Assembly: GCF_000969825.1 (NCBI RefSeq)
Contig: NZ_KQ033919.1
Location: forward strand, 896,873 to 960,872
Source: Parabacteroides gordonii MS-1 = DSM 23371
GTDB lineage: Bacteria > Bacteroidota > Bacteroidia > Bacteroidales > Tannerellaceae
DNA length: 64,000 bases
Reading direction: 5' to 3'
Below the pieces are notes generated by a model that worked only from the letters and a program-made list of their open reading frames with translations, ran no database searches and was not told where the DNA came from. Both the position numbers and the translations under genes were made by a program. This document shows, piece by piece, positions 4,531 to 36,382 of the stretch (positions are counted from its first letter, which is position 1; the number at the start of each line of letters is the position of its first letter).

Positions 4531-4603
4531 GGTGCCATAGCTCAGTTGGTAGAGCAAAGGACTGAAAATCCTTGTGTCCCCGGTTCGATTCCTGGTGGCA
4601 CCA
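4531..4603 (+). tRNA. tRNA-Phe (GAA anticodon)
   Basis: A full cloverleaf is readable. Acceptor GGTGCCA (4531-4537) pairs with TGGCACC (4596-4602) before discriminator A4603. The D arm follows, then an anticodon stem-loop with CTGAAAATC, giving anticodon GAA, and a T arm with GGTTCGATT. The T stem contains one apparent C/U mismatch. The 3' end is the integration target: the terminal CTGGTGGCACCA is repeated at 20992-21003 and 36279-36290. Confidence 0.95.
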
Positions 4604-4608
4604 CTTTT
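4592..4608. repeat. att site, left (tRNA 3' end)
   Basis: CTGGTGGCACCACTTTT, identical over 17 bp to 20992-21008. The left part is the end of tRNA-Phe; the TTTT flank is element-derived, since the third copy at 36279-36291 lacks it. Confidence 0.85.
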
Positions 4609-19585: not shown

Positions 19586-19591
19586 AAAAAT

Positions 19592-20856: not shown

Positions 20857-20991
20857 CATTCAGAAATCGTACCCAAGATACAAACTTGTGTTGAACGGTG
20901 CAAAGCTGTGAAAACCTTATTCAAGGGACTTACATCGTAGCAAAGATATAACTTACTGAAAGATAGTGCTATATCAACCCGGTTTCAGTTG

Positions 20992-21008
20992 CTGGTGGCA
21001 CCACTTTT
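20992..21008. repeat. att site between IME1 and IME2
   Basis: CTGGTGGCACCACTTTT, 17 bp identical to the left site (4592-4608). Its upstream flank TTG makes a 16-bp match with the right site (TTGCTGGTGGCACCAC, also at 36276-36291). It is therefore a hybrid of a right-end flank and a left-end flank, as expected at a junction of two tandem elements. Confidence 0.85.
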
Positions 21009-21027
21009 AAAAGACTTCAAATTTGGT

Positions 21028-21059
21028 AAATCCCTGAAAATTAAACATTTCAGGGATTT
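21028..21059 (+). terminator. Element-borne hairpin just inside left end of IME2
   Basis: AAATCCCTGAAA (21028-21039) pairs with TTTCAGGGATTT (21048-21059), followed by TCTTTTTCT. Same stem and same distance from att as in IME1. Confidence 0.65.
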
Positions 21060-21239
21060 TCTTTTTCTCCTAATCCGCATATTTTCGGCAAAATAACGCA
21101 CTTCCGTAGTGCTAAATCGTGGACAATTTTAGTCTCGAAAAAAATGTCCACGAATTGTACCGTAAGTCGTTGATTGTCTTATCTTTTGATTCTTGCTATT
21201 CTGCACGATTCAGTAACTTTAAACATTAATTTTTAGAGT

Positions 21240-22466
21240 ATGAAACGACAGACTTTCAACGTGCTGTTCTTCATCCGCAAAACAAGAACAGTAAAATCAG
21301 GTGAAACACCTATCATGTTGCGGATAACTATTCAAGGCCAATTAGCTGAAATGCAGCTAAAACGAACCGTTAAGCCTGAACTCTGGTCACAAGCCAAAGA
21401 ACGGTGTACAGGTAAAGATTCTAAATCAGTAGAAGTAAACCGTTATCTGGAATCGGTAAAATTACGCTTGTATGAGATTCATCGGACTTTGGAAGATGAA
21501 AACAAACTTATTAATCCGATGGAAATCAAAAAACGTTTTCTTGGACTGGATGAAAAGCATAAAATGTTCTTTGAAGTATTCCAAGAACATAACGACAAAT
21601 GCAGGGAACTGATAGGCAAGGATTACGCAAAGGTCACTATCTCCCGTTTTGATACATGCTTGAAGTATTTTAGAGAAATGCTTCTAAAACAGTACCATCT
21701 AAAGGATATTCCGATGAAAGAAATAAATAATGCCATCATTCAGGACTATATTCATTTCTTGAAATCAAAAAAGAATCTGCAAGAGAATACCGTTATTCGC
21801 TACATGAAAGTAGTCAAGAAGATTACTAACATGGCTCTTGCAAATGACTGGATAGATAAAAATCCGTTTATGAATATCCATTTCCATGAGCAGGAAGTAC
21901 ATAAGGAGTTTCTAACCAAAGAAGAATTAGAGATTTTACGAACTAAAGTTTTCAATGTACCACGCTTGGAATTGGTACGTGATATTTTCTTATTCCAGTG
22001 TTGGACTGGATTAGCGTTCATAGATGTATCGGAATTGAAACCCGAACATTTGGTAACAGACAATCAAGGGAACGTCTGGATAAGAAAAGCCCGCCAAAAG
22101 ACAAAAATCATGTGTAACATTCCACTTTTGGATATTCCGTTAGCGATATTGGATAAGTACAAAGGCTATCCGCTTTGCGAAAAGAAAGGTACATTATTGC
22201 CCGTTCCATGCAACCAAAAGGCAAACAGTTATTTAAAGGAAATAGCTGATTTCTGCGGAATTAAGAAGAACCTAACCACTCATACAGGGCGTCATACTTT
22301 TTCGACTGTTGTTACGCTAGCTAACAATGTTTCATTGGAAAATGTATCTAAGATGCTCGGTCATACCAATACGAAAATGACACAGCGATACGCTAAAGTA
22401 TTAGATCAGAGTATTCTCCGGGATATGCAGAATGTACGGGAGAACTTCTCTACTAAAACGACCTAA
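21240..22466 (+). CDS. Tyrosine recombinase (integrase) of IME2
   Basis: 408 residues, same architecture as the IME1 integrase: arm-binding N-terminus, SAM-like core-binding domain and catalytic domain. Catalytic positions are identical in number: H348, R351 (HTGRHTF), H375 (LGHTN), Tyr384 (TQRYAKV). TGLAF (A259) stands where most recombinases have Arg I, as in IntDOT-like enzymes. Large parts are identical to IME1's protein (for example PVPCNQK and NSYLKEIAD), consistent with both using the same tRNA site. The ATG at 21240 follows a TAACTTTA box. Confidence 0.93.
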   Translation: MKRQTFNVLFFIRKTRTVKSGETPIMLRITIQGQLAEMQLKRTVKPELWSQAKERCTGKDSKSVEVNRYLESVKLRLYEIHRTLEDENKLINPMEIKKRFLGLDEKHKMFFEVFQEHNDKCRELIGKDYAKVTISRFDTCLKYFREMLLKQYHLKDIPMKEINNAIIQDYIHFLKSKKNLQENTVIRYMKVVKKITNMALANDWIDKNPFMNIHFHEQEVHKEFLTKEELEILRTKVFNVPRLELVRDIFLFQCWTGLAFIDVSELKPEHLVTDNQGNVWIRKARQKTKIMCNIPLLDIPLAILDKYKGYPLCEKKGTLLPVPCNQKANSYLKEIADFCGIKKNLTTHTGRHTFSTVVTLANNVSLENVSKMLGHTNTKMTQRYAKVLDQSILRDMQNVRENFSTKTT

Positions 22467-22472
22467 AGATGA

Positions 22473-22509
22473 AAACGGCTACCTAATCCATTCGGACGGT
22501 AGCCGTTTA
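22473..22509 (+). terminator. Terminator between integrase and HTH genes
   Basis: AAACGGCTACC (22473-22483) pairs with GGTAGCCGTTT (22498-22508). It can serve the integrase gene and the convergent HTH operon. Confidence 0.7.
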
Positions 22510-22531
22510 TCTATCTTCATTATATTAAAAG

Positions 22532-22834
22532 CTAAAGAGAATAATCTTCTATATTATAGGCAGAACGAAACCTATCTTCCAAAACCTTCCTAATATCCGA
22601 TTCACGAAACAGCACTTTGCCCGGAAGTTGAATAAAAGGGAAAATGCCATCATCCCGATAATGCTGTAAAGTCCTACGGCTGATTTTGAGAATGGAACAA
22701 AGTTCTTCACTTGTCAGATACCGTTCACCCTCAAACATGGGCTTATTATTCTTCAATGCATATTCTATATAAGGTAAAGCCCTATCCAACGATTGCAATA
22801 ATTCTTGGCTATCCTCATTCGTGTACAAATCCAT
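22532..22834 (-). CDS. Small HTH protein, excisionase-like (type B), copy 1
   Basis: 100 residues from MDLYTNED; two extra residues are possible from 22840. HTH SEELCSILKISRRTLQHYRDDGIF and wing LPGKVLFRESDIRKVL. It follows the type A gene with almost no gap. It is the counterpart of IME1 8825-9112, placed next to the integrase as expected for an excision factor. Confidence 0.86.
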   Translation of the reverse strand: MDLYTNEDSQELLQSLDRALPYIEYALKNNKPMFEGERYLTSEELCSILKISRRTLQHYRDDGIFPFIQLPGKVLFRESDIRKVLEDRFRSAYNIEDYSL

Positions 22835-22840
22835 AAGCAA

Positions 22841-23137
22841 TTATTCTTTAATGGTTACTTTTATTCTACCTGAATCCAATAATTTTTGTACTTCGGCAAC
22901 CTTATAATATACTTTCTTGCCAACAGCCGAAAAAGAAAGTTTGCCACTCTCCCGTAGAGACTGTAATGTTCTCAAAGAAATATTTAAGGAAGCTGCCAAT
23001 GTCTTGCCCTCTATCCATTCTTTCTCAATACACATATCAGAGGAAGATAAAGAAGTATTATCTGCTAATGATATAATCTGTTCCAGCTTCTTTCTAAAAG
23101 AATCGAAGGAAACTCTTTCTATTGCTACTATATCCAT
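22841..23137 (-). CDS. Small HTH protein, excisionase-like (type A), copy 1
   Basis: 98 residues from MDIVAIERVSF, preferred over 23155 because the other type A proteins start at the same place. HTH GKTLAASLNISLRTLQSLRESGKL and wing KKVYYKVAEVQKLL. Directly upstream of a type B gene. This copy is more diverged from IME1's than the 24053-24367 copy. Confidence 0.85.
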   Translation of the reverse strand: MDIVAIERVSFDSFRKKLEQIISLADNTSLSSSDMCIEKEWIEGKTLAASLNISLRTLQSLRESGKLSFSAVGKKVYYKVAEVQKLLDSGRIKVTIKE

Positions 23138-23397
23138 ATATAAATTACTTTTCAAAATTCATTTTCTCAATCCTTTTCTTTTAAAGTAAGTTTTTCAGAA
23201 CTCAATATGAAGCATTGACAAAGGTAATGTTCTGTATTTAGCCTGTTCAAGTCCAAGCCTTCGGTTTAGAAGAAAATCTTCCTCTCACTATGTTCGAGCG
23301 TATTTTCATCTAAAGACTTGCACAGACTAAATACTTCACTGGAAAAGTCAATGATTCAAATTAAATTCCGAAAAACAATGTTTTCGGGGCTGATAGG

Positions 23398-23691
23398 CTA
23401 TTCTTTCCAACTTTCAAAGTAGTGCTTTTGGAGCAGTTTGTCAATATCACTTTGGCGGTAGATGATTTTGCCTTTTATCTGGATAAAGGGGATTAATCCT
23501 GTATCTCGCCATTCTTGCAAGGTTCGCAAACTGACATTCAGTTTCTTGGAAACTTCATGGTTAGAAAGAAAGCATTCCCCGTTCAGGTGAGGTTTGTAAT
23601 GCTTGACAATAGATTCAATGCCGTTCAGCATTGAATCGAGCGAAGAAATAAATTCTTTGACTTGTGGTGTATCTTTATTTATTAGTTCCAT
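23398..23691 (-). CDS. Small HTH protein, excisionase-like (type B), copy 2
   Basis: 97 residues starting MELINKDTPQ. HTH NHEVSKKLNVSLRTLQEWRDTGLIP and wing IKGKIIYRQSDIDKLL. It belongs to a second A-B set in which a DUF3876-like gene is inserted between the two HTH genes. A 260-bp gap with small inverted repeats separates it from copy 1. Confidence 0.86.
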   Translation of the reverse strand: MELINKDTPQVKEFISSLDSMLNGIESIVKHYKPHLNGECFLSNHEVSKKLNVSLRTLQEWRDTGLIPFIQIKGKIIYRQSDIDKLLQKHYFESWKE

Positions 23692-23772
23692 GATTGAAAG
23701 ATTGTTTTATTGAAATATTGATTTCAAGATTACCAGATGGCTAATCAGTTATATGATTAGCTGGTTGATAAG

Positions 23773-24066
23773 TTAGTTACGCAGATAGTCACCCAGTGAT
23801 GAAATGCTAAGTACATCTTTTGCCGGATCATAATCTATATAGAGCCATTTGGATGCAGTGGCAATAAAATACTGACTACTATCTTTTTGTATCTCATACG
23901 TAGCAGGAGAAGCCTGTTTGGTGGTTTCCGATACATATATAATAGAAAGAAGATAATCTTTGTCGTTCCGGTAGATAATAACCGTAGGATTCAGATTAAT
24001 GCTTTCCCATGTTCCGACAATGGAAAACAAATTGAAGGTCGGATAATCTTCTTTAGTTCTTTTCAT
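23773..24066 (-). CDS. DUF3876-like small protein
   Basis: 97 residues from the internal ATG at 24066 (MKRTKEDYPTFN); the frame also opens at 24105. The body is beta-rich with VGTWESINLNPTVIIYRNDKDYLL and a final YDPAKDVLSISSLGDY. I associate this with DUF3876, a family found in Bacteroides mobile elements, from memory of its WES...P...IYR pattern. Its role is unknown. The start overlaps the end of the upstream type A HTH gene by 14 bp, so it is translationally coupled to it. Confidence 0.7.
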   Translation of the reverse strand: MKRTKEDYPTFNLFSIVGTWESINLNPTVIIYRNDKDYLLSIIYVSETTKQASPATYEIQKDSSQYFIATASKWLYIDYDPAKDVLSISSLGDYLRN

Positions 24067-24367
24067 AAGGCGTAATTTGTTTGGGTGATTGATTCTGTGT
24101 TTCACTGTCTGCTATAATTCTTTCAATATCAGCAGATTTATAATAAATCTTACTGCCTATTTGAGAATAAGCCAATCGTCCGCTACTCCGGTAATATTGT
24201 AACGTTCGTTTGCTAAAGCCTAATAACAGGCACACTTCCTGACTATCCAGCCAATTTTCTACTTTCTGTGTATGAGGGCTACACAAACTTTCTATCCGTT
24301 TGGCAAACTCGGTGAACCGTTCGCAGACATACGAAAATGTTCTTCTTTCGATGGTTACTACTTCCAT
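24053..24367 (-). CDS. Small HTH protein, excisionase-like (type A), copy 2
   Basis: 104 residues starting MEVVTIERRTF. HTH SQEVCLLLGFSKRTLQYYRSSGRL and wing SKIYYKSADIERII. It leads a three-gene run, HTH A, DUF3876-like, HTH B, transcribed toward the integrase and divergent from the tetR operon. Confidence 0.87.
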   Translation of the reverse strand: MEVVTIERRTFSYVCERFTEFAKRIESLCSPHTQKVENWLDSQEVCLLLGFSKRTLQYYRSSGRLAYSQIGSKIYYKSADIERIIADSETQNQSPKQITPYEKN

Positions 24368-24541
24368 ACTCTTTTAATTTTAAATGGTTTATAAAACGTG
24401 TTGATTCTATTTTCATCGGCAAATGAAAGAAGAATCAAGAGCCGTTTTAAAAACTGTCTAGGGATGGCATAGTAAGTTCAGCATTGGCTTGATAGCAAAA
24501 AACTATCTTCCACTGCAAATTTACCAAGCAAATTATTTGTA

Positions 24542-24559
24542 TGTTTCCGATAAGTAACA
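24542..24559. promoter_or_regulatory. Operator upstream of tetR-type gene
   Basis: TGTTTCCGATAAGTAACA, repeated with one change at 26172-26189 upstream of the DUF2271 gene. The outer arms TGTTtC/GTaACA are imperfectly palindromic, as TetR-family operators are. It is 33 bp before the regulator start. Confidence 0.65.
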
Positions 24560-24592
24560 TATATTTATTCCCAAATAGTAACAACATATAAA

Positions 24593-25207
24593 ATGGCAGG
24601 AAAAAGCATAACAGGAGAAAGAGATCGGGAAGCTACTGAAAAACGGTTGCTGGATACTATCGGTAAAATGATTGCCGAAGATGGCTTCGAGAAAATCGGC
24701 ATTAACGCTATAGCTACCCAATCAGGTGTTTCAAAGATATTGATATACCGCTATTTTGGCTCGGTAGAGGGACTTATGGCTGCTTACATACGGCAACATG
24801 ATTTTTGGCTCAATTTCCCACTTGAATATCCCAGCCGTAAAGAACTACCTACATTCGTGAAAGGCATGTTTCAAGGACAGATTGAGCAATTAAGGAATAA
24901 TCCTACTTTAAAAAGGCTTTATCGCTGGGAACTATCTTGCAATAATGATATGATCGTAAAGCTAAGAGAGCAGCGGGAGAAAGTTGGAATAGACCTTATT
25001 AAAAAAGTGAGTGAACTAACAGGACATCCGCAGAAGGAGATAGCGGTAATGGCTTCCCTCTTGACTGCATCTATTACTTATCTGGTGATGCTGGAAGATT
25101 TCTGTCCGGTATATAACGGCATCCCCCTAAATGAAAACTCCGGTTGGGAACAAATAAACGAAGGAATTGAGGTCTTTATCAATAAGATATTTCAAAATGA
25201 ACACTGA
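24593..25207 (+). CDS. TetR-family transcriptional regulator
   Basis: 204 residues. The N-terminal TetR HTH (about 12-60) is clear: ATEKRLLDTIGKMIAEDGFEK then NAIATQSGVSKILIYRYFGS. The C-terminal ligand domain is helical and not specific enough to name an inducer. It starts a four-gene run with a nitroreductase-like protein, a DUF2271 lipoprotein and a small outer-membrane protein. The same 18-bp site lies before this gene and before the DUF2271 gene, suggesting that it represses itself and the second half of the cluster. Confidence 0.9.
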   Translation: MAGKSITGERDREATEKRLLDTIGKMIAEDGFEKIGINAIATQSGVSKILIYRYFGSVEGLMAAYIRQHDFWLNFPLEYPSRKELPTFVKGMFQGQIEQLRNNPTLKRLYRWELSCNNDMIVKLREQREKVGIDLIKKVSELTGHPQKEIAVMASLLTASITYLVMLEDFCPVYNGIPLNENSGWEQINEGIEVFINKIFQNEH

Positions 25208-26153
25208 TTTCATACAAATAGCCAGCTATGCTTCTAAGGCTCCTTCGGGACATAACACGCAACCTTGGAAATTTCACATTGCTGATAATACAATTACGGT
25301 TATTCCAAACTTCGAGGTTGCATTACCTGTCGTTGATGGAAATAACCGGGAGTTATTCATTAGTTTAGGTTGTGCAGTCGAAAACCTATGTATTGCGGCT
25401 AACCATTTCGGCTATACAACTCAAATAGTTGAATATAGCATCAAAGGAATCATTCTTGAATTAACAAAGAATGACCTCATGGTTGAAAATCCTCTATTCC
25501 ATCAAATAGAAAAACGGCAAACAAACCGTAGTGTCTATAATGGTAATAAAGTATCGAATGAAATGCTGCAACAGCTTCAATCCATTCAAAAAGAAGATGC
25601 TGTTCAATTCTACTTTGCCGAAATAGGTACACCATTTGCCGACACAATAATCAAATACATACTAAAAGGGAATGAAATTCAAATGAATGATGCTGCTTTC
25701 AAAAATGAATTACTTTCGTGGATGAGATTTAATAAGAAACAGGTTACAGAGACACAAAACGGATTAAGTTATCTCGTTTTCGGAAACCCGCCATTGCCCG
25801 GAATATTTGCACGCCCCATAGTTCGCTTATTCCTAAAATCCAATATGCAAAATAAATCGGATAGGAAGAAAATCGGTTCTTCCTCACATTTCGTTATATA
25901 TACCACGCAGAATAATACCATTGAAGAATGGCTTAATTTAGGGAGAAGCCTTCAACGCTTTTTATTAAAAACTAGTGAAATAGGAATTTCTTACGCTTTC
26001 CTGAACCAACCATGTGAAGTTACCACATTGTCGATTGCTCTACGGAAAGAGTCACCTATTAATAAGGAATATCCTACCTTGATATTGAGAATAGGTTATG
26101 CAAATCCAGTGCCCTATTCTCCTCGTAAGAATATTGAAACATTATTAAGATAA
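25197..26153 (+). CDS. Nitroreductase-fold protein, Acg-like
   Basis: 318 residues from ATG 25197, overlapping the tetR stop by 11 bp; an upstream start at 25167 would only add residues read in the tetR end. The opening SYASKAPSGHNTQPWKF is the flavin-binding nitroreductase signature. The long central part and the C-terminal block WLNLGRSLQRFLLKTSEIGISYAFLNQP fit the Acg/double-nitroreductase family rather than classical NfsB types. A reductive or flavin-storage role in response to a toxic compound is possible, given the TetR context. Confidence 0.85.
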   Translation: MNTDFIQIASYASKAPSGHNTQPWKFHIADNTITVIPNFEVALPVVDGNNRELFISLGCAVENLCIAANHFGYTTQIVEYSIKGIILELTKNDLMVENPLFHQIEKRQTNRSVYNGNKVSNEMLQQLQSIQKEDAVQFYFAEIGTPFADTIIKYILKGNEIQMNDAAFKNELLSWMRFNKKQVTETQNGLSYLVFGNPPLPGIFARPIVRLFLKSNMQNKSDRKKIGSSSHFVIYTTQNNTIEEWLNLGRSLQRFLLKTSEIGISYAFLNQPCEVTTLSIALRKESPINKEYPTLILRIGYANPVPYSPRKNIETLLR

Positions 26154-26171
26154 TCTTTTTTTTGCTTGAAA

Positions 26172-26189
26172 TGTTCCCGATAAGTAACA
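26172..26189. promoter_or_regulatory. Second copy of the TetR-type operator
   Basis: TGTTCCCGATAAGTAACA differs from 24542-24559 in one base. It lies 32 bp before the DUF2271 gene; in the first copy the gap to the tetR start is 33 bp, so the geometry is the same. Confidence 0.65.
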
Positions 26190-26220
26190 AATGATATAAT
26201 AACAATTTAATAAAACTAAC

Positions 26221-26943
26221 ATGAAGAAAATGGGATTGACATTCATTTATTTATGGCTCATTAGCCTTTGTTCCTGCCAAAAGGAACTAATTGAATATGA
26301 GAAAGGAGATGTAAAAATCTGCATAGAACAGGGTGAGCATTGGCTGCATGATTTTCCTTTGTTTTTGGGTATTAATAAAAAGAACCCACCTCAAATTGCT
26401 ATTTGGTTGGAAGATACACAAGGGAATTATCTTTCAACGGTTTATGTAACTCATAAAATCGCCACTCAATCTTGGCAAGCATCGGGAGGAAACCGACGAA
26501 AAGAAGCTCTACCTCATTGGTGTTATTCACGTGGAGTTAAATACGATGATGGACTTTATTTGCCAACAAAGAAAGAGCCATTAATAGATGGCATATCAGG
26601 AGCGACCCCACACGAAAACTTTGATATAAAATTAAATCTGGCAACAGCATTAAAGAAGTTCGTAGTAAAAATAGAAATAAATCATTCCACTGATTTCAAT
26701 GAAGCCTTCCCTAAATCAGCCAAAGATGGAGAAGCCAACTATTCAGGAGGTAAAGAAGGAAGCGGACAACCTGCAATCGTATATGCTGCCAATGTAGATT
26801 TATTGTCAGGTGAAAAATCATTTGAAGCAAATCTGGTGGGGCATAGCAGCCCTGACGGTAGTTCCGGAGAAGTCAATAAAGATACATCGGGGCTGACAAC
26901 TGCTTTACATATTGTGAAACGTATAACTGTAATTATCCAATGA
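26221..26943 (+). CDS. DUF2271-type lipoprotein
   Basis: 240 residues with a lipoprotein signal (FIYLWLISLCSCQKE, Cys about 19), so a membrane-anchored periplasmic or surface protein. The body matches my memory of DUF2271: IAIWLEDTQGNYLSTVYVT, HWCYSRG, DGISGATPHENFDIKLNL and QPAIVYAANVDL. The family often lies beside flavin-transfer or PepSY-type membrane proteins in oxidative settings, but no such partner is seen. Its end overlaps the next gene by ATGA, so translation is coupled. Confidence 0.8.
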   Translation: MKKMGLTFIYLWLISLCSCQKELIEYEKGDVKICIEQGEHWLHDFPLFLGINKKNPPQIAIWLEDTQGNYLSTVYVTHKIATQSWQASGGNRRKEALPHWCYSRGVKYDDGLYLPTKKEPLIDGISGATPHENFDIKLNLATALKKFVVKIEINHSTDFNEAFPKSAKDGEANYSGGKEGSGQPAIVYAANVDLLSGEKSFEANLVGHSSPDGSSGEVNKDTSGLTTALHIVKRITVIIQ

Positions 26944-27467
26944 AAAAGATTATTCTACTTATTATTATAGTTTGTTGCGCTGCTACCATTGCAACAGCGC
27001 AACAAACAGAACGCTTCACTCTTGCTACAAGTGTAGGAACAGGGGTTGATATGAACGAGCCGGCAACCACTCCGTTTACGTGGCAAGCTCTTGGCTATTA
27101 TGCTATCAACAAACGGATATCGGTCGGTATCGGGACAGGATTATCTATTTATGAGAAAACTCTGATTCCGCTATTTGCCGATGCAAAATTGTTAATCATA
27201 AAGCCTAGAAAATTCACTCCTTATATAGAATGTGGCGTTGGGTATAGTTTTGCACCGGATAAAAATGCTAATGGAGGTTTTTATTTGAATCCGTCTGTTG
27301 GGGTAGAATATTCAATTTGTAAAAGTAAGAAGTTATTCTTGGCTTTAGGATATGAATCCCAAAAACTTGAACGGCTGAAAACGCAAAAACAATCATTGTT
27401 TACAGCCGAGTTTGCAGAGAAGTTAAGCCATCATGTTATTTCAATAAAGATTGGATTCATGTTTTAA
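26940..27467 (+). CDS. Small outer-membrane beta-barrel-like protein
   Basis: 175 residues with a clear signal peptide (MKKIILLIIIVCCAATIATAQ, cleavage after TAQ). Alternating strands follow with Gly/aromatic ends (SVGIGTGLSIY, YIECGVGYSFAP, NPSVGVEYSI) and a terminal Phe (IKIGFMF), as usual for outer-membrane barrels. ATGA overlap with the DUF2271 gene. Function unknown; it is part of the TetR-linked cluster. Confidence 0.8.
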   Translation: MKKIILLIIIVCCAATIATAQQTERFTLATSVGTGVDMNEPATTPFTWQALGYYAINKRISVGIGTGLSIYEKTLIPLFADAKLLIIKPRKFTPYIECGVGYSFAPDKNANGGFYLNPSVGVEYSICKSKKLFLALGYESQKLERLKTQKQSLFTAEFAEKLSHHVISIKIGFMF

Positions 27468-27549
27468 AGACATAAAGAAATCATTCAGCAACATGTAACA
27501 GACTTTAGTCTGATTATTAATACTCATTAATTATTAAACACTCGTGCCT

Positions 27550-28177
27550 ATGAATGATTTATCAAAAACGAGGATTATCATCTTATTGACTGATTCCTCA
27601 CAAAAAGTAACTGACACAGAAATGCAAGACGCTTATGACGAATTTATCAGGTGCATAGCAATAATTGGCAGTTCAAAAGATAACTCCAATATCTTTCGGA
27701 TGCTGAATCTCACTCGTATTGAGATAGCACCCTTAAAAGAGCTATATCAGTACGGGCAGGGGGAAAAATGCGCTTAAAAATTCTTATTTACATAAAGTGC
27801 TGGCTATTATCAATGTAGAATTGGAACTATTAAGTCTAAAAATTAAGCATCCTGAATCATTTGATTCTCCCACCTTACCAACATTCGAATCAGATCTATA
27901 TGTAACCCCTAAGTCAAAGGACTTGGGGATTATTGGTATTGCTGAAATAGTAATAGGGTTATCTTTTTTAGGCGAAGTAGTCGGAAAAGACGGAAAACCC
28001 GTCCCATTAGTTCGTTTAGCTCACGGTTTTGAAGTCCTTTTCAATTTAAAATTTGGAAGTATATACGATAAACTGGATGCTATTTTTATGCGTAAACCAT
28101 TCAATCTGACCAAAACATTAGATGCTTTAAAGAATGCAATTAACAAAGAAGCCCGTAAACGAGCTAATAAACATTAG
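27550..28177 (+). pseudogene. RteC-like gene split over two frames (IME2 copy)
   Basis: The first frame (from ATG 27550; GTG 27544 possible) ends at 27777. The second frame runs to 28177 and contains YLHKVLAIINVELELLSLKIKHPESF, then DLGIIGIAEIVIGLSFLGEV and a C-terminal LARLAHGFEVLFN-like block recalling RteC. Frame one becomes frame two by one +1 step in GGGGGAAAAA (about 27760-27768). The order RteC-like, then HTH, matches IME1, where the break is at the homologous place. A pseudogene is the simplest reading, but a programmed shift must be considered. Confidence 0.65.
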
Positions 28178-28284
28178 ACAAAATGGTTTTATAATTCTCT
28201 TATTTACAACTATTTGAATTTTATTTTTAGGGGAGTAGGTAACTACTCCTCTTTTTCTAGTTCTCCATTCTGCCGATTTTTGCA

Positions 28285-28301
28285 TCATCAATCGATTGAC
28301 A
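28285..28301 (+). promoter_or_regulatory. Palindromic operator shared with IME1
   Basis: TCATCAATCGATTGACA, identical to the minus strand of 15201-15217, around the palindrome TCAATCGATTGA (28288-28299). TTTTTGC directly upstream resembles a -7 box. The HTH start codon lies 33 bp after the palindrome. Confidence 0.65.
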
Positions 28302-28332
28302 TTCATAATGTATCACTAAAAAATGAAGCAAA

Positions 28333-28665
28333 ATGTATATAGACAACGAAAACTTTGAGAAATGGATGGAGAAGCTATCCAAGAAACTTACTGAAATAGG
28401 GAAAGACTTAAAATCCCTAATCAATACTGATAAAGTATTAGATGATAATGAAAAGATACTCGATAATCAGAATTTAGCCTTTCTTCTGAAAGTATCTTTC
28501 CGAACTCTTCAACGTTATAGGGTAAGCGGTCAACTACCTTTCTTTACCATCGGAAAGAAAACTTATTATCGTGCTGGTGATATTCGGTCTTTCGTTCGTG
28601 AACGTGCCGATTTCCAAACCTACAAACAGTTTGAAAAAGCCAATCAATTAGAGAATCAGCCTTGA
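28333..28665 (+). CDS. HTH_17 protein after the RteC-like gene (IME2 copy)
   Basis: 110 residues, homologous to IME1 14840-15166: MYIDNENFEKWMEKL, DNQNLAFLLKVSFRTLQRYRVSGQL, wing KKTYYRAGDIRSFVRER. The start is fixed by the conserved leader AAATGAAGCAAA before it. It precedes the candidate oriT and mobilisation genes, so it may control transfer. Confidence 0.87.
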   Translation: MYIDNENFEKWMEKLSKKLTEIGKDLKSLINTDKVLDDNEKILDNQNLAFLLKVSFRTLQRYRVSGQLPFFTIGKKTYYRAGDIRSFVRERADFQTYKQFEKANQLENQP

Positions 28666-28689
28666 AAGCAAAAGGTAGCAAGAGAAAGA

Positions 28690-28860
28690 AGTCTGTGTTT
28701 AGGCTATTTCTCTGTGCTACCACCCCGATTTAGCAAAAACTGCTTCACCTATCGGTTCAGCCCGTTTCGCTAAATCGAGCAAGAGGAAACTGGACTTTGT
28801 CCTGTTCTCCCTCTTGCCCTGCGGGGCAAAGCCTTCGGCTTTAGCGTGTTACAAAAACAT
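28690..28860. other. Candidate oriT of IME2
   Basis: Several inverted repeats are packed before the mobilisation genes: CGATTTAGC (28726-28734) with GCTAAATCG (28769-28777), GCAAGAGG (28779-28786) with CCTCTTGC (28810-28817), and AAAGCC/GGCTTT (28829-28843). It lies 90-260 bp before the BfmA/BtgA-type gene. No protein frame is visible in this gap. Confidence 0.5.
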
Positions 28861-28949
28861 GCTGTAATGACACCTGTAATAAGCATTTTCTTTGCAATGT
28901 TTATTATCAGGTATTTATCTATTCATATTTCTATAAAAAAGTAATTACC

Positions 28950-29534
28950 ATGCCAAATAACAGTCGAAAAACGATATTCACTACCATTTCCATAGACAAA
29001 GAAACGGCAGCTTTGGTAGAAAAAATATGCAAACGCTATTCACTGAAAAAGAGCGAAGTTGTAAAGTTGGCGTTCGGATATATTGATAAGGCACATATCA
29101 ACCCATCCGAAGCACCTGAATCCGTAAAATCGGAACTGGCAAAAATAAATAAGAGGCAGGATGATATTATCCGTTTCATCCGTCACTACGAGGAAGAACA
29201 ACTGAATCCCATGATACGAGCAACAAATTCTATCGCTTTGCGCTTCGAGACTATCGGCAAAACATTAGAAACTTTTATTCTCTCTCAACTGGAAGCCAGT
29301 CAGGAGAAACAAACAGCCGTACTTAAAAAACTAAGTGAGCAGTTCTGCAATCATGCCGATGTGATAAACAATCAGTCCAAACAGATAAATGCACTTTACC
29401 AGATACACCAACGGGATTATAAAAAGTTGCTTCAACTGATACAACTCTATTCAGAACTATCTTCTTGCGGTGTGATGGATAGCAAAAGGAAAGAGAACTT
29501 GAAAGCTGAAATCTTCAATCTGATAAATACGTAG
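28950..29534 (+). CDS. BfmA/BtgA-family mobilisation protein
   Basis: 194 residues. The ribbon-helix-helix-like N-terminus (TTISIDKETAALVEKICKRYSLKKSEVVKLAFGYI) binds DNA, and a long helical coiled-coil tail follows (NKRQDDIIRFIRHYEEEQ...). This matches the BfmA/BtgA accessory proteins of Bacteroides mobilisable transposons, which help the relaxase at oriT. The relaxase gene starts 2 bp after its stop codon. Confidence 0.87.
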   Translation: MPNNSRKTIFTTISIDKETAALVEKICKRYSLKKSEVVKLAFGYIDKAHINPSEAPESVKSELAKINKRQDDIIRFIRHYEEEQLNPMIRATNSIALRFETIGKTLETFILSQLEASQEKQTAVLKKLSEQFCNHADVINNQSKQINALYQIHQRDYKKLLQLIQLYSELSSCGVMDSKRKENLKAEIFNLINT

Positions 29535-29536
29535 TT

Positions 29537-30472
29537 ATGCACATAGACTTTGCTCCACCATCAAACGGAACATATAATAATGCTGGCAGTAGCCGACAAT
29601 TAGCTAATTATATGGAACATGAAGATTTGGAACGGATGGAAAAAGGTATCTATACCGAAGGCTTTTTCAATCTGACAGATGATAACATTTATAAGTCAAA
29701 GGTTATAAAGGATATAGATAGTAATATAGGGCAACTCCTAAAAACAGATGCTAAGTTTTATGCTATTCATGTCAGCCCATCGGAAAAGGAGCTCCGAGTA
29801 ATGGGTAGTACGGAGCAGGAACAAACCGAAGCAATGAAACGCTATATTCGTGAAGTATTTATTCCTGAATATGCCAAGAATTTCAACAAAGGGCTATCCG
29901 AAACAGATATAAAGTTTTATGGGAAGATTCATTTTGATCGCAACCGTTCAGATAACAATTTGAATATGCACTGTCATTTGATTGTAGGCCGGAAAGATCA
30001 ATCCAATAAGAAAAAACTATCTCCGCTTACTAATCATAAGGACACCAAGAATGGAGTAATAAAAGGCGGCTTCGACCGTGTGAATCTGTTCCAAGAAGCG
30101 GAGCAAGGTTTTGACAAGCTATTCGGCTATAACCGTCAATTATCAGAATCCTTTGAGTATGCCAATACCATGAAGAACGGCAGCATAAATGATAAACTGA
30201 AAATGCAGGAACAAAAATTACAAGAACCAAAACAATATCTTGTTGGCGAAAATAAAATAAGAATATTCCAATCCAGTGAAAAAGATAACATGATTTCTTG
30301 CAATCTTAATAGTAAGGTAGATACAAAACACATTTACAATCAGCAAAAGAACAATGGTGGAGATCCTCTTTTGTCTATCTTTTCATTGGGAGAGGGTAAT
30401 AATTACGATGCAACATCGGTAGAAGATATACAGGCACAGAAGCGCAAAAAGAAGAAAGAGATAAGAAAATGA
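29537..30472 (+). CDS. BtgB-type relaxase (DUF5712-like)
   Basis: 311 residues. The opening MHIDFAPPSNGTYNNAGSSRQLANYMEHED and the metal-site block NLNMHCHLIVGRKD (H145, H147; another His at 78 in YAIHVSPSE) mark a relaxase of the BfmB/BtgB type, often annotated DUF5712. It is unrelated in sequence to the IME1 relaxase, so the two elements mobilise differently although their integrases are close. The stop overlaps a 36-codon frame by ATGA. Confidence 0.85.
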   Translation: MHIDFAPPSNGTYNNAGSSRQLANYMEHEDLERMEKGIYTEGFFNLTDDNIYKSKVIKDIDSNIGQLLKTDAKFYAIHVSPSEKELRVMGSTEQEQTEAMKRYIREVFIPEYAKNFNKGLSETDIKFYGKIHFDRNRSDNNLNMHCHLIVGRKDQSNKKKLSPLTNHKDTKNGVIKGGFDRVNLFQEAEQGFDKLFGYNRQLSESFEYANTMKNGSINDKLKMQEQKLQEPKQYLVGENKIRIFQSSEKDNMISCNLNSKVDTKHIYNQQKNNGGDPLLSIFSLGEGNNYDATSVEDIQAQKRKKKKEIRK

Positions 30473-30579
30473 TTGAAAATGAAAAACTAAGAACTGAAAT
30501 AATCCATTACCCAATGGAGTGGTTCAAATATCGAAAATCGCTTATAAGACTGACAGTGGATAACATTATTACCACCTAA
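30469..30579 (+). CDS. Possible 36-residue coupled ORF after the relaxase
   Basis: The ATG at 30469 overlaps the relaxase stop as ATGA. The frame reads MIENEKLRTEIIHYPMEWF and ends at 30579 without domain. It may be the remnant of an accessory gene like the coiled-coil gene after the IME1 relaxase, or chance. Confidence 0.35.
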   Translation: MIENEKLRTEIIHYPMEWFKYRKSLIRLTVDNIITT

Positions 30580-30936
30580 AGAAAAAAACAAGATTAGATT
30601 GATGAAATCACAACTTAGAATATACTAAAAAGTTATGTCTTAGAAAACCTATATTAAATGCATTTGTGAAATCCTGAATTACCATATCTGATCTAAGCTA
30701 TTACAATTTGTGCCAATCCCTTACAAAATATGCTTTGATTAACTTGTGTCCATCAAAAACATTATCTACCTTTGTGTTAGAGGACTATATGAATTTATGT
30801 AGAGAATACTGTGTATGGTTGGACTTCCACTAATCTATTGTACACACTTCTTTTCAAAATCTAATCTAGTTCCTTTTTATAAAACAATTAAAAGGATATA
30901 TCTAATATTGTTATTTACATATATTTATTATTAGCA
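30580..30936. other. AT-rich gap before the Detocs operon
   Basis: No gene frame of note. It contains the probable Detocs promoter (30743-30774), leaving about 160 bases of untranslated leader before the kinase gene. I see no clear hairpin in that leader. Confidence 0.5.
30743..30774 (+). promoter_or_regulatory. Probable promoter of the Detocs operon
   Basis: CTTG at 30743-30746 and TACCTTTG at 30767-30774 fit the Bacteroidetes -33/-7 boxes with 20 bp spacing. Confidence 0.5.
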
Positions 30937-33900
30937 ATGAGACAAAAAAAGAATATTGATATTATTTATAACTCTTTCTTTGATAGACGTGTTCAGAAGG
31001 ATATTTCAGCTAATATGCTATATTCCAACTTAAAATATAAAGAACAAAAACGTATTATTACTAGAATATCTCCTATATTTAAGTCTTGTATTTACTTGAA
31101 AACACTCTTGCCTCAAAATTATAATGACCTATTGGGTAAAATTAATTTTACGGTATCCAACTTATGCAACGGGGTAGGTTGTCTCACCACACAATGCATA
31201 CATTTTTCAAATGAGATAAATAGTTATCTCGAAAAGAGGAAAGATTTTGAAAAGCATATACTGCTGGGAAATTATGATAGATGTTATACCATACTTGATG
31301 ATATTGACTGTATTTGTGTTTCAATGTGGTCTTTAGAAAATAGAATATTACTAAGTAAGTTGAAATATGGTACTAAGGGAGCTATTGACTTTAAGGATGA
31401 ACTAAATTCTAAAGTAAAATCTCTTCTATCTATATTCATTTCTTTCTTTTGGAAAAATGCAGATGTAAAATATTCATTAGCAGGGATTAAGCAAGAGCTT
31501 AATATGTTAATAAGATTGTCTAACTCTAGTGATGAAATCTCTGATGTTTTTAGATATGAATTTCTAAAATTTCAATCATCTTATAAATATGAACATCTTT
31601 TTTGGAATATCTTAAGAATGTCTATAATTGATGTATATGAATTTTTATTAGAGATTTTAATAAATTCAGATTTTGACGACTGTGATTTAGAAGATATAAA
31701 AGCATGTATTAAGGATTTAAATAATAATGTTCAAGATTCTACTTTAGGCAAATTATATGCTAATTATAGCATAGGGTCAAATATACAAGAAGACTCTCTT
31801 GAACATATTTTACTAATGAATTTATTTAGAACTAAGCAATATAGCTATTTAATAGAAAAAGCTGCTAATTACATTCAAAATAATCCATGTGATATTGATA
31901 TTTTAGATATTTATATCAAGGCGCATTTATATATGGAATATAACAATATTGACTTGGCTTTTTTAGAAGAAAATTGTTTGCTCAAAAAAATGGCTCTCAA
32001 TCTTTTTTCTTACTTAAAGAGAGATTCTAATTATACCGTATCTTATAATGAACTTAATATACAATTAAATACTTTAAGCCATTTAAGGATTGGGAAACAA
32101 CTTTTTTGCAAACTGAGCTTTTATGAGAAATATGGTGTCTCTTTATTACATTATTCACTATGGACACCAAATATTAAATTCTCAGACATTGATATTAGTG
32201 AAAGTGATTATCAAACGATACTTTCACAAAAAGTGCCATCTTTTATACGGGAACAAGCGTTTTCTCATTTATTTTATAACTTTGTAGAGGTAGATAATAT
32301 CATTGATGCAATAAAAATATACGTGACTGCATACTTCGAAAACAAACAATTTGTACGTAATATTGAAACAAAAAATATTGTAAAAAAAGTAGAAGAGAAA
32401 ATATTAACTCAAGAATGTATTCCTTTAGAATTCAGTATATTTTTTTCGTTGGTAGATGCTCCTAATTATATTATTTATTATTATTTCAAAAAATATCTAT
32501 TCAGTATAAATGAGAAAAAACCGTCTGACATAAAATTTCCATCAAAGAAAATATCGAAAGAAGTAGAATTCTTTTTATTACATGTTTGTACTCCTAACAT
32601 TCTTTCTTTATATACTCGACAATTTCCAACTTCATCCGATGTTCTTGATGAGAGATTGAGGATATTAAAACAACTTAGTGGTATTGATAATAATAATAAA
32701 TACTTAACAGAATTGACAGAAATCACCAGAACAAAGACTATTCGTAAACGTGTGCAATCATTAGACCAAAGTATGATTTACGTTGATGAAAAAGCTCTAA
32801 AAGAACTGGAAATGGATGAGGTTTACAAACTTTACCAAAGTTATATAAATATTGATGAAAATATAAAAACGAAGGAAGTATCCATTGAATCATTAGAGGA
32901 ATTGGATTTTAATCAAGCCTTTGACGGAGAACAAGATTTAAATATAAAAATAAAACAAGTACAATATAAATACATACTTTTTCGGCAAATATTCATAACA
33001 ATAAGACGTAAATTTTTGGTTAGTTATAAAAATGGACTTGATTTCTACTTAAGTACTAGAATTAGACATGGTACTTTAATAAATCAATTACGTAGACAAT
33101 TTGATAATTCTCACTTAGTGACCAATATAACAAGTGAAGGAGAGTATGCACGAGATATGTTTATAACCAATAATATTTTAAGACTTGAAGATGTAAAAAA
33201 GGAAGCAATTCAGGATATACTACTATCATTTACAAAAGAAATTGATAATTTAATTCTTTCATTAAAGAATGATATTGTACAGGTACAAGCTTATGATCTA
33301 GACAAACAACACGCTGATGCAATATTCAACTATGACCATTTAAGGTTTGAGTTTGATTTAAGTTATCGATTCGTCGAAGAAATTTCGAAAATTAAAGACT
33401 ATAATGAGTTTATAGATTCAATTTTTATACATCTATGGGAATGCACAGATATATTACTAGAAAAAATGAGAGATTATCTTGAAATATTAAAAAAACAATT
33501 TATTTTAAAATTAAATAAATTAGAAGTGGATGTAGCTAGTATTGCCGAAAAAGAGTGTAATATAACATATTTTTCAGATCTAATAGCAACTTGTCGTACT
33601 GGAGTGCAAACAGATATAGACATAGTAAAAAAATGGTTCTATAGAAGTAAAGGTGATGAGAGTGATTTTACTATAAATGATTTAATTGATGCATGTATCC
33701 AAAGTGTAGCAATACATAGAAATGTAGGCAATTTCACTCCAGAAGTGATAGGTTGTAGCTTTATTGTTTTTAGAGGTGAATTCTTTAAAAAGCTGGGAGA
33801 TCTAATTCAAATTTTCTTAAATAACATTATTGACTATGAATTAGCATCAGGATATAGCACTTCTCCGATTATTGAAATTAAGGAGTCTTCAAATATTATT

Positions 33901-34179
33901 GCAATCGAAGTCAAAAACAAAATCCAAGAGAATGATCTACCTTCGCTAGAGGAGAAGTTGAAAATTAAAAAAAGTGATTTTTTAAACCCTGAAGCTATGA
34001 ATATGACGCGCAATGAGAAAAATTCAGGGCTTATAAAAGCATATAATATCGTACGCAATATTTTGCGATATGATGATTCTGCTTTTGATCTAAATATAAA
34101 AGATAACTATTTTTCAGTTGATATAAAAATTGATGCAACATATTTAATGCCTTATGAAAATATTAGTAGTAGAGGATGA
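30937..34179 (+). CDS. dtcA: Detocs sensor histidine kinase (DtcA-like)
   Basis: 1080-residue soluble protein. The first ~680 residues are helical without a named domain, probably the sensor. A DHp-type segment follows with STRIRHGTLINQLRR; His711 is the candidate phospho-acceptor. The ATPase part (about 900-1070) has an N-box-like LIQIFLNNIIDYE (N962, N963) and a G2-like NSGLIKAYNIVRNIL; a canonical DxGxG is not evident (IAIEVKNKI instead). Order and sizes of the three genes match Detocs, in which DtcA senses phage and phosphorylates the receivers (published work, from memory). The next gene starts inside its last 26 bp. Strongly AT-rich. Confidence 0.85.
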   Translation: MRQKKNIDIIYNSFFDRRVQKDISANMLYSNLKYKEQKRIITRISPIFKSCIYLKTLLPQNYNDLLGKINFTVSNLCNGVGCLTTQCIHFSNEINSYLEKRKDFEKHILLGNYDRCYTILDDIDCICVSMWSLENRILLSKLKYGTKGAIDFKDELNSKVKSLLSIFISFFWKNADVKYSLAGIKQELNMLIRLSNSSDEISDVFRYEFLKFQSSYKYEHLFWNILRMSIIDVYEFLLEILINSDFDDCDLEDIKACIKDLNNNVQDSTLGKLYANYSIGSNIQEDSLEHILLMNLFRTKQYSYLIEKAANYIQNNPCDIDILDIYIKAHLYMEYNNIDLAFLEENCLLKKMALNLFSYLKRDSNYTVSYNELNIQLNTLSHLRIGKQLFCKLSFYEKYGVSLLHYSLWTPNIKFSDIDISESDYQTILSQKVPSFIREQAFSHLFYNFVEVDNIIDAIKIYVTAYFENKQFVRNIETKNIVKKVEEKILTQECIPLEFSIFFSLVDAPNYIIYYYFKKYLFSINEKKPSDIKFPSKKISKEVEFFLLHVCTPNILSLYTRQFPTSSDVLDERLRILKQLSGIDNNNKYLTELTEITRTKTIRKRVQSLDQSMIYVDEKALKELEMDEVYKLYQSYINIDENIKTKEVSIESLEELDFNQAFDGEQDLNIKIKQVQYKYILFRQIFITIRRKFLVSYKNGLDFYLSTRIRHGTLINQLRRQFDNSHLVTNITSEGEYARDMFITNNILRLEDVKKEAIQDILLSFTKEIDNLILSLKNDIVQVQAYDLDKQHADAIFNYDHLRFEFDLSYRFVEEISKIKDYNEFIDSIFIHLWECTDILLEKMRDYLEILKKQFILKLNKLEVDVASIAEKECNITYFSDLIATCRTGVQTDIDIVKKWFYRSKGDESDFTINDLIDACIQSVAIHRNVGNFTPEVIGCSFIVFRGEFFKKLGDLIQIFLNNIIDYELASGYSTSPIIEIKESSNIIAIEVKNKIQENDLPSLEEKLKIKKSDFLNPEAMNMTRNEKNSGLIKAYNIVRNILRYDDSAFDLNIKDNYFSVDIKIDATYLMPYENISSRG

Positions 34180-34588
34180 TTCCAACAAACTAGCAGATGT
34201 AAAGAAATTCATCAACGATAATTTTCCTAATATCCAAATTGATGAAGCTGTTTCATATAACAAAGCTACAGAGCTATGTTATTCTATATTATATGATTTC
34301 TTATTGCTTGATATGAATATCCCTGTATATGAAAGAAATGATCCAGATAAATCTGTAATTGATAATGGAGGGGAAATGATTATTCGTGAATTAACAAGTG
34401 AAAATATTAGAATTAATTTTACCATTTTTACACAGTATGAAACTATTGGCAATGAGACTATAGATGATATAAATCGCAGATTAATGAATTTTTGTCCAGA
34501 TATTTATTGTGGATACGTCAGTTATGCCACTATAAATGATAATTGGAAACAGGAATTAAAAAAAATAATAAAAAAAATATATGTTTAG
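34154..34588 (+). CDS. dtcB: Detocs stand-alone receiver (DtcB-like)
   Basis: 144 residues, a single response-regulator receiver domain without output domain: ILVVEDDSNKLADVKKF with the acidic pair at 8-9, then DFLLLDMNIPV with Asp53 as the likely phosphorylation site, and TIFTQYE at the Thr/Ser switch place. In Detocs the lone receiver is described as a phosphate sink that prevents accidental activation of the effector. It overlaps both neighbours (26 bp with dtcA, 8 bp with dtcC), so expression of all three is coupled. Confidence 0.87.
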   Translation: MKILVVEDDSNKLADVKKFINDNFPNIQIDEAVSYNKATELCYSILYDFLLLDMNIPVYERNDPDKSVIDNGGEMIIRELTSENIRINFTIFTQYETIGNETIDDINRRLMNFCPDIYCGYVSYATINDNWKQELKKIIKKIYV

Positions 34589-35831
34589 AATATTAATAAT
34601 TGATGATTCCTATGAAAAAATAGGAAAAATAAAAGAAGTCTTAAACGAAATAGCAGAGCTTGATGTTAATAAAATAGAGACCGCATCAGATATAGAAACT
34701 GCAAGAATGAAATTATCAAGGAGTCAATACGATTTAATTCTATTGGATTTATACATTCCAGAAAGATATGGTAATACTCCTGATCCTGATAATGCAGCAT
34801 CATTTCTAGGTTATTTGAGAATTGAAGAAGATATCTATAAACCATATTTTGTAATAGGCGTTACTAAATATAAGGATATTCCTCAATCTAATAGACGTGA
34901 TTTTGAGAAGCATCTATATCATATTTTAAACTATGATGAAATGGCTGATGACTGGAAAATTAAGCTCAAAGATAAAATTGAATATTTAATAAGTATTGAA
35001 CATAAAATCAAATATAGTAAACAATATGATTATGACGTTGCATTTATTACTGCATTACAATTCCCTGAATTTGCGCAAGTCCTTAAATTAGGAGAACAAG
35101 AATGGCAAGAATATAAAAATATTATAAATGACAAAACAAATACATATTATATTACAACATTCAAGAATTCACGTGGAAAAACTATTCGTTGTGTAGCTGC
35201 ACATTCAGAACAAATGGGAATGTGCGCATCTGCAACTTTAACTTCTAAATTAATATATACTTTTAGGCCTAGATATATAATCATGACAGGTATATGTGCT
35301 GCAACAAGTAAAGATATTCATTACGGTGATATAATTGTGGCATCTGAAGCTTGGAATGGAGCCAGCGGCAAGATTAAGGATGTAAAAGATAAAGGAAAAT
35401 TATTCCTTCCCGATTATAGGCATGAAGTTCTTAATGCACAAATCATAAACTGTGTAAATAAGTTAAAAACAGACGAGCGTCTTTTTTTCAACATCGCGTC
35501 TGGATATCCAACAACTAATGGCAAACCACCTTATACATTAAAGGTACATTGTGGCCCAGTTTCCTCCATGCCTGCTGTAATTCAAAGCAAAGAGGAAGTT
35601 GGAAAGTTAAAGGAGCATTGTCGTAAACTCATGGGGTTGGAAATGGAAGGGTATGGTGTATACTATGCTGCAAATCATACAATTGAACCAAAGCCAATAT
35701 TTCTCTCTATAAAATCAGCTTCAGATTATGCAGATGAAGAAAAAGACGATGACTATCAAGAGTATTGTGCATATACTAGTGCCCAGTTTGCTTATCATTT
35801 AATAATTAATGAGTTTGACTTTGATTTATAA
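34581..35831 (+). CDS. dtcC: Detocs effector: receiver fused to nucleosidase (DtcC-like)
   Basis: 416 residues. The receiver (about 1-130) has LIIDDSYEK and LILLDLYIP with Asp56 as the phosphorylation site. A phosphorylase/nucleosidase domain (PNP_UDP/MTA-nucleosidase fold) follows from about 155: DVAFITALQFPEF, then IMTGICAATSKDIHYGDIIV, MGLEMEGYGVYYAA (E354/E356) and SIKSASDYAD (Asp382 at the catalytic acid place). In Detocs this effector cleaves ATP into adenine and ribose triphosphate once phosphorylated, stopping infected cells. All key positions appear intact, so it is probably functional. Confidence 0.9.
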   Translation: MFRILIIDDSYEKIGKIKEVLNEIAELDVNKIETASDIETARMKLSRSQYDLILLDLYIPERYGNTPDPDNAASFLGYLRIEEDIYKPYFVIGVTKYKDIPQSNRRDFEKHLYHILNYDEMADDWKIKLKDKIEYLISIEHKIKYSKQYDYDVAFITALQFPEFAQVLKLGEQEWQEYKNIINDKTNTYYITTFKNSRGKTIRCVAAHSEQMGMCASATLTSKLIYTFRPRYIIMTGICAATSKDIHYGDIIVASEAWNGASGKIKDVKDKGKLFLPDYRHEVLNAQIINCVNKLKTDERLFFNIASGYPTTNGKPPYTLKVHCGPVSSMPAVIQSKEEVGKLKEHCRKLMGLEMEGYGVYYAANHTIEPKPIFLSIKSASDYADEEKDDDYQEYCAYTSAQFAYHLIINEFDFDL

Positions 35832-35961
35832 TTTATTCAATATAATATTTTCACTAAGAAACAAAATGGAGTAAAAGTATTATTTATTCTTATTGAATTA
35901 CTACAGCAGAAAAAAAATAATATCCTTTTTAGTAAAAATATATTAAAATAGTTTTCTGGAT

Positions 35962-35992
35962 TTTGTAAATTCAAGAATACGGTTTATTTTTG
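35962..35992 (+). promoter_or_regulatory. Possible outward promoter at the IME2 right end
   Basis: TTTG and TATTTTTG with 19 bp spacing, about 290 bp before the right att. It may drive a small RNA across the end, or an int promoter in the circular form, where the integrase lies downstream of the joined ends. Confidence 0.4.
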
Positions 35993-36278
35993 TCTTAATA
36001 TTCTCCATGAGCAAACTACTGCAAAAGCACGTAGCAAATTAGTAGGATAAATCATGGGATATGCTTGAAGCTAAAAATATAAAGTTTTAAATATCAGCGC
36101 AGTAGCTCTAATAAGAGAATTTCAGGCGATGTTAAAACAATGAGATATTTGAAAATAGAATCGTTCATATAGCAAGCAAAATGATAAAACATAATCGTGT
36201 ACTAAATCATGTGGATTTCCAAATGGAAGAAACTATAAAACGGTGATAATCAATAGAGAAAACATAATAGTTCTCTTG

Positions 36279-36291
36279 CTGGTGGCACCAC
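36279..36291. repeat. att site, right end of IME2
   Basis: CTGGTGGCACCAC, matching tRNA-Phe 3' end; the match to the middle site extends upstream to 16 bp (36276-36291). The downstream flank CAGAAAATC is host DNA that originally followed tRNA-Phe. Confidence 0.85.
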
Positions 36292-36300
36292 AGAAAATCA

Positions 36301-36331
36301 AGCAGTTACTTTAAAAGTAACTGCTTTTTTG
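36301..36331 (+). terminator. Native terminator of tRNA-Phe, displaced by the elements
   Basis: AGCAGTTACT (36301-36310) pairs with AGTAACTGCT (36316-36325), followed by six T. Its place 11 bp after the right att shows it originally ended the tRNA-Phe transcript, now 31.7 kb away. Confidence 0.75.
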
Positions 36332-36382
36332 TTTAACTCAATCTGCTCCCACTATAAATTGAAAACTTTCAAGCATAGATAT

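Follow-up and report, generated by a model that had tools for sequence, protein, structure and literature searches.

A Detocs-type operon in Parabacteroides gordonii, probably the exchangeable cargo of a mobilisable tRNA-Phe element

The window, a 64,000-nucleotide stretch of the Parabacteroides gordonii MS-1 genome, holds a three-gene operon that is very probably a complete Detocs operon, borne at tRNA-Phe by a mobilisable element as its exchangeable cargo and with a proposed mechanism that cleaves ATP. Detocs was reportedly first described by Rousset et al. in 2023, and the validated operon runs in the order kinase, lone receiver, receiver-effector. We base the assignment on gene anatomy, predicted folds and conserved residues, and the cargo status on the borders of the element, an empty site in a congener and replacement of the cargo in sibling elements.

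Three genes with the build of Detocs

PMC11728103 describes three components of Detocs: DtcA, a histidine-kinase protein; DtcB, a buffer that takes up phosphate; and DtcC, a response regulator. In the definition given in PMC11728103, PMC11249213 and PMC10952713, the last of these is a receiver fused to a nucleosidase of the PNP/MTAN fold. The operon in the window is composed as follows.

30937..34179, + strand: DtcA-like sensor kinase gene, 1080 aa
34154..34588, + strand: DtcB-like lone receiver gene, 144 aa, with phospho-acceptor D53 and acidic pocket D8/D9
34581..35831, + strand: DtcC-like gene, 416 aa, receiver (D56) plus nucleosidase of MTAN/PNP fold (E163, M355, E356, D382)

The three open reading frames (ORFs) are intact and overlap by 26 nt (kinase/receiver) and 8 nt (receiver/effector), with the positions and lengths that an earlier note on this DNA had given. 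Its numbering of H711 in the kinase, D53 in protein 2 and D56 in protein 3 was also correct. That note had proposed Detocs from gene order, sizes and domains, and the proposal held: a histidine-kinase-like protein, a stand-alone receiver with its phospho-acceptor Asp, and a receiver joined to a PNP-type nucleosidase with catalytic residues follow one another as in DtcA, DtcB and DtcC. Identity with Detocs is supported by order, domains, sizes and residues, the validated Vibrio DtcABC having been compared by description only. In contrast to the published system, the operon in the window lies in a mobilisable element.

All three proteins, encoded in neighbouring genes, matched the PADLOC candidate system PDC-M60, with E-values of 2.8e-55 for PDC-M60A, 1e-25 for PDC-M60B and 2.2e-107 for PDC-M60C; an operon of E. 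coli BR1220 also matches A, B and C. The kinase differs in its sensor half, which matches model A less well, the best stretch covering residues 524-1040 only. Chance similarity was rejected because of the E-values and of the gene order conserved in relatives. A search of Pfam yielded PNP_UDP_1 in protein 3 (57.8 bits, above the cut-off of 25.1) and Response_reg in proteins 2 and 3 (20.0 and 26.7 bits, both under the cut-off of 30.2). The kinase matched no Pfam family at E up to 1, and so neither HATPase_c nor HisKA; PF27260.1, the one Pfam accession listed for the 42 kinase homologues from a protein search, was absent from its result.

At 28.1% G+C, the operon stands apart from the element backbone (36.4%) and the flanks (41-42%). 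We claim no promoter for it: promoter-like sites numbered 39 against 43.9 in shuffles, and a Bacteroides-type promoter pattern had three matches in the whole window against 2.44. The two terminator-like sites (1.5 in shuffles) are the two strands of one palindrome at 36300-36326, outside the right repeat of the element. Rfam gave no match in 30400-36400.

Those 42 homologues were found with kinase residues 500-1080. The closest, 98% identical, lies on a 5.75-kb contig, the next fifteen are 39-43% identical and the rest mostly lower. While a genome scan with a single kinase protein as query found no relatives, an alignment-based scan of species genomes found 96, of which 80 were kept. The order kinase, lone receiver, receiver-effector on one strand recurs in 75 of these 80, including one (L071) in which the effector is split into three pieces. 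The exceptions are L019, with its receivers in one 507-aa protein; L042 and L046, which stop at a contig end; L073, without a called kinase ORF; and L079, without a lone receiver. L080 has a 1.9-kb gap after the kinase, and in a few relatives the kinase is cut by a contig end.

Conservation across these relatives extends to the residues expected to act. The phospho-acceptor Asp of the lone receiver (D53) is D in 78 of 78 rows, and that of the receiver-nucleosidase (D56) in 77 of 79, with two gaps. The nucleosidase has a predicted MTAN/PNP fold, with 15-22% identity to MTAN in the rows shown. Alignment to E. coli MTAN pairs E163, M355, E356 and D382 with E12, M173, E174 and D197, so that fold and catalytic Glu, Met-Glu and Asp place protein 3 in the MTAN/PNP superfamily; judged by this alignment, the residues for cleavage appear to be in place. 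The earlier note had listed D382 and E354 for the nucleosidase. The former was borne out, whereas E354 was replaced by E356 as the second catalytic glutamate, both on the MTAN alignment and because E354 is variable (Glu in 38, Asp in 21, Lys in one, Ala in one and a gap in 18 of 79 rows). The effector differs from MTAN in its fused receiver and in K264 and K388, two invariant lysines where E. coli MTAN has Gln and Ser.

We also scanned ten divergent effectors that stand behind like kinases (L031, L063, L029, L047, L056, L074, L026, L019, L066 and L078). L031 carries a DpnII-MboI-type nuclease, L063 a patatin, and L066 and L078 a PNP domain; the other six have no Pfam domain besides the receiver. 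L019 has two receiver stretches within one protein.

The family is sporadic. Among 38 genomes of the genus, a full-length DtcA is found in the window's own genome only, one other having a short match (E 9.6e-4), and at least 4 of 393 genomes of the order carry one, with no more than two candidates scored in each genome and four further matches being short. Phages gave a single distant match among 50,697 records, limited to query residues 147-410. The six E. coli operons whose surroundings we examined lie at topB, near ssrA, on a plasmid, between fimbrial genes and hipAB, near rspB, and in AH04. PMC11728103 names a yjcB-ssb operon of E. coli as Detocs. We searched for that island and did not locate it, none of the surroundings of the six E. 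coli operons matching; the AH04 operon has the same three protein accessions as the fimbrial/hipAB-site operon and neither yjcB nor ssb in the 16 kb shown. A Klebsiella plasmid and E. coli S1 have a shorter kinase variant of 966 aa that follows a TIR-domain gene (L145 81-6676, L203 9282-15877); of 5,426 E. coli genomes, six match the 3.9-kb query at 99% identity or more.

A kinase with an Asn-type G1 box

Structure prediction gave a nearly all-helical N-terminal part for the DtcA-like kinase and a GHKL-type ATPase fold for residues of about 904-1073. H711 lies within an RIRHG motif, and a long helical stretch separates its helix from the ATPase domain. All 28 rows of one alignment have this residue, as do all 111 of another, although one of the two patterns that fetched genome loci contains the motif around H711, so that the independent rows are the protein-search homologues (27 in the alignment) and seven enteric operons. 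The N-box Asn, N963, is conserved in 110 of 111 homologues, and the G2 residues G1031 and K1034 in 108 and 106. Thus the conserved phospho-acceptor His and histidine-kinase-type fold of DtcA are present, and from fold and conservation the kinase domain would phosphorylate H711.

Of the marks of a canonical HATPase_c histidine kinase, the Pfam match and the G1 box DxGxG are both absent. The window protein shares its ATPase domain, N-box Asn and G2 Gly with histidine kinases and with PDK/BCKDK, the other GHKL ATPases compared, and is set apart from them by these two absences and by the long helical stretch. N994 stands at the position of the G1 Asp, as placed by weak alignments to YycG and HK853 (E 0.04 and 0.11), and the 111 homologues have Asn 104 times, Ser 3, Thr 2, a gap 2 and Asp 0 times at this position. 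A DxGxG string in the last 160 residues is present in 2 of 81 kinases (L004 and L005), where it aligns to the G2 site, not to G1. The earlier note had remarked on the missing DxGxG. Its absence is real, but it is not peculiar to this copy: an Asn-type G1 box is common to nearly all relatives examined. A degenerate or dead kinase in the window copy was rejected because the change is also found in these relatives.

The same position bears on an alternative in which the build is Detocs-like and DtcA is an atypical kinase that binds a non-ATP nucleotide in its Asn-type G1 pocket or signals without autophosphorylation. We consider this unlikely, though the best placed of the rivals. The lack of any Asp at position 994 in the 111 homologues, together with the YycG and HK853 alignments, fits it; the kinase fold and the conservation of the N-box Asn, G1031 and K1034 favour nucleotide binding, and the low significance of those two alignments also weakens the case.

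Element borders and cargo bay

The features that bound the operon, and the tRNA gene at which the elements are integrated, are these.

4531..4604, + strand: tRNA-Phe(gaa), at which integration occurs, with the att core in its 3' end
20989..21004, + strand: att repeat TTGCTGGTGGCACCAC, 16 bp, between the two elements
21005..36291, + strand: second mobile element of the tRNA-Phe array (IME2 in the earlier note)
21240..22466, + strand: tyrosine integrase of the second element
29537..30472, + strand: Pfam DUF5712 protein, putatively for mobilisation, bounding the bay on the left
30479..35983, no strand: cargo bay, replaced by other genes in sibling elements
35984..36291, + strand: conserved right end, of which roughly the first 145 bp are present beside the bay in 17 elements
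36276..36291, + strand: att repeat, 16 bp, right end of the second element

The 16-bp repeat has a one-mismatch copy at the 3' end of tRNA-Phe (4589-4604). Three matches at up to 2 mismatches were found against 0.04 expected by chance, and the genome as a whole has two exact copies of the 16-mer. Behind tRNA-Phe and behind the middle repeat stand two integrases of the same build, one at each place. In a congener (G012) the site is empty, tRNA-Phe directly adjoining the match to the right flank of the window; the best reading of 4605-36291 is therefore that two stacked elements were inserted. From the end of the operon to the right repeat it is 444 bp, in keeping with the operon's placement at the right end of IME2 in the earlier note. 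That the operon is element cargo, also claimed there, agrees with the element ends, the empty site and the replacement in siblings.

The sibling element of the congener G011 matches the window from 21005 to 30478 at 87.5% and from 35984 to 36291 at 91%, with the sequence between replaced. Similarly, at its own tRNA-Phe, G002 matches 21006-23145, 24537-30178 and 35984-36291, with other genes between. We take the DUF5712 protein (29537..30472) to have a mobilisation (mob) role. We then searched for the right end across 123 genomes of the family, scoring at most six candidates per genome, and obtained at least 36 places. We studied the 17 that cover the beginning of the segment, which come from 10 genomes of the genus; set aside were three of the same genus with the later part only and 16 in other genera. 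A mob gene or piece lies upstream on the same strand, 1.8-12.3 kb away, in 17 of 17. The segment 35984-36129 has 83 of 149 columns identical across the 17 elements, and as single-stranded DNA it folds no better than shuffles (z 0.26 and 0.39).

Together the 17 bays hold 63 ORFs of at least 80 aa (one mob piece excluded), and little is shared from bay to bay: the two Detocs sets match each other, L193 and L199 have a three-gene set in common, L195 matches L196 three times, and there is one match each between L191 and L196 and between L147 and L197. L193 and L199 are 12-kb bays that share their set distantly, and the large L193 protein has no PADLOC match at 1e-5; the gene sizes in this pair resemble those of Wadjet.

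One of the two Detocs sets is a second complete, divergent operon in the same genome, on the minus strand of contig 2 (L084 6846-11984, about 378845-383983). Its A, B and C proteins are 26.5, 35.1 and 31.5% identical to those of the window, carry the same motifs and match the same PDC-M60 models. It lies inverted between a 48-residue mob remnant and a copy of the right end, which is the same kind of bay.

Fifteen of the 17 bays (L198 and L199 being outside) were tested in PADLOC at a threshold of 1e-5, mostly with one protein per bay. Nine gave a match: the two Detocs bays, L147 (Beta/PD-Lambda-2-like with an M78 peptidase), L148 (helicase), L191 and L196 (NsnA-like), L194 (QatC), and L195 and L201 (type II methyltransferases). 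Because the methyltransferase and helicase models are broad, these matches are support, not proof, that the interval from mob to right end serves as a bay for varying, often defence-like modules. Among four backbone proteins of the second element, three had no match at 0.01 and one matched mad1 at 2.5e-7. The six bays negative at 1e-5 (L149, L190, L192, L193, L197 and L200) may hold undescribed systems; a protein in L149 has metallophosphatase and HATPase domains. A literature search found nothing obviously about such a bay, which is no proof of novelty.

Integrase or mobilisation genes like those of the two elements were found by tblastn near 15 of 81 relatives (the 80 loci plus the second operon), mostly at low identity, so that the evidence for cargo status extends no further than these. 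The right end of the first stacked element (18215-20821) encodes two proteins: one, of Schlafen AlbA_2/HATPase_c_4 type, partly matches the pAgo and SIR2-pAgo models of PADLOC, and the other, of 409 aa, has a sub-threshold DUF5677 match only.

Carriage on one of two tandem elements would also suit a defence directed chiefly against competing plasmids or elements, or an addiction module by which the element is retained, rather than an anti-phage role. This is improbable, as published Detocs acts against phages (PMC11249213) and the window bay has no non-overlapping ORF of at least 80 aa besides the three operon genes.

Proposed mechanism and meaning

Under the Detocs reading, the helical N-terminal part of DtcA would sense infection and its GHKL-type domain would phosphorylate H711. 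Phosphate would pass from H711 to D53 of DtcB, acting as the buffer of its published role, and to D56 of DtcC. Once phosphorylated, DtcC may then use its MTAN-like site, E163/M355/E356/D382, to split adenine off ATP; the infected cell would run out of energy, the phage would fail to multiply and protection would result. A two-component system for host purine metabolism, unrelated to defence, is very improbable: the MTAN fold and residues would also fit cleavage of MTA or SAH, but the occurrence is sporadic (1 of 38 genus genomes, at least 4 of 393 in the order), the operon is cargo of a mobile element whose sibling bays have defence-like genes, and the invariant K264 and K388 face Gln and Ser in MTAN.

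A bolder extension, to which we assign little probability, is that Detocs kinases share the Asn-type G1 box as a fitting for a phosphoryl donor other than ATP, the alarm firing despite ATP loss, and that the bay is a dedicated site at which one element family exchanges whole defence systems. An Asn could face the O6 of guanine, whereas Asp faces the amino group of adenine, so such a box would suit a non-ATP donor. Our literature search found no paper on a histidine kinase with Asn in the G1 box and GTP. If true, the Detocs alarm would keep firing while its effector destroys the ATP pool.

The operon in the window belongs to a known defence family, is well preserved and occupies an exchange bay of a mobilisable element. 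Small mobilisable elements of this genome carry a complete, predicted ATP-destroying alarm system as cargo that can be swapped, in two instances and both times in this kind of bay. Within a published signalling pathway, the family-wide G1 change in the kinase is an anomaly that can be tested, and the bay, with 6 of 15 tested examples lacking a PADLOC match, offers a convenient starting point in the search for more defence modules.

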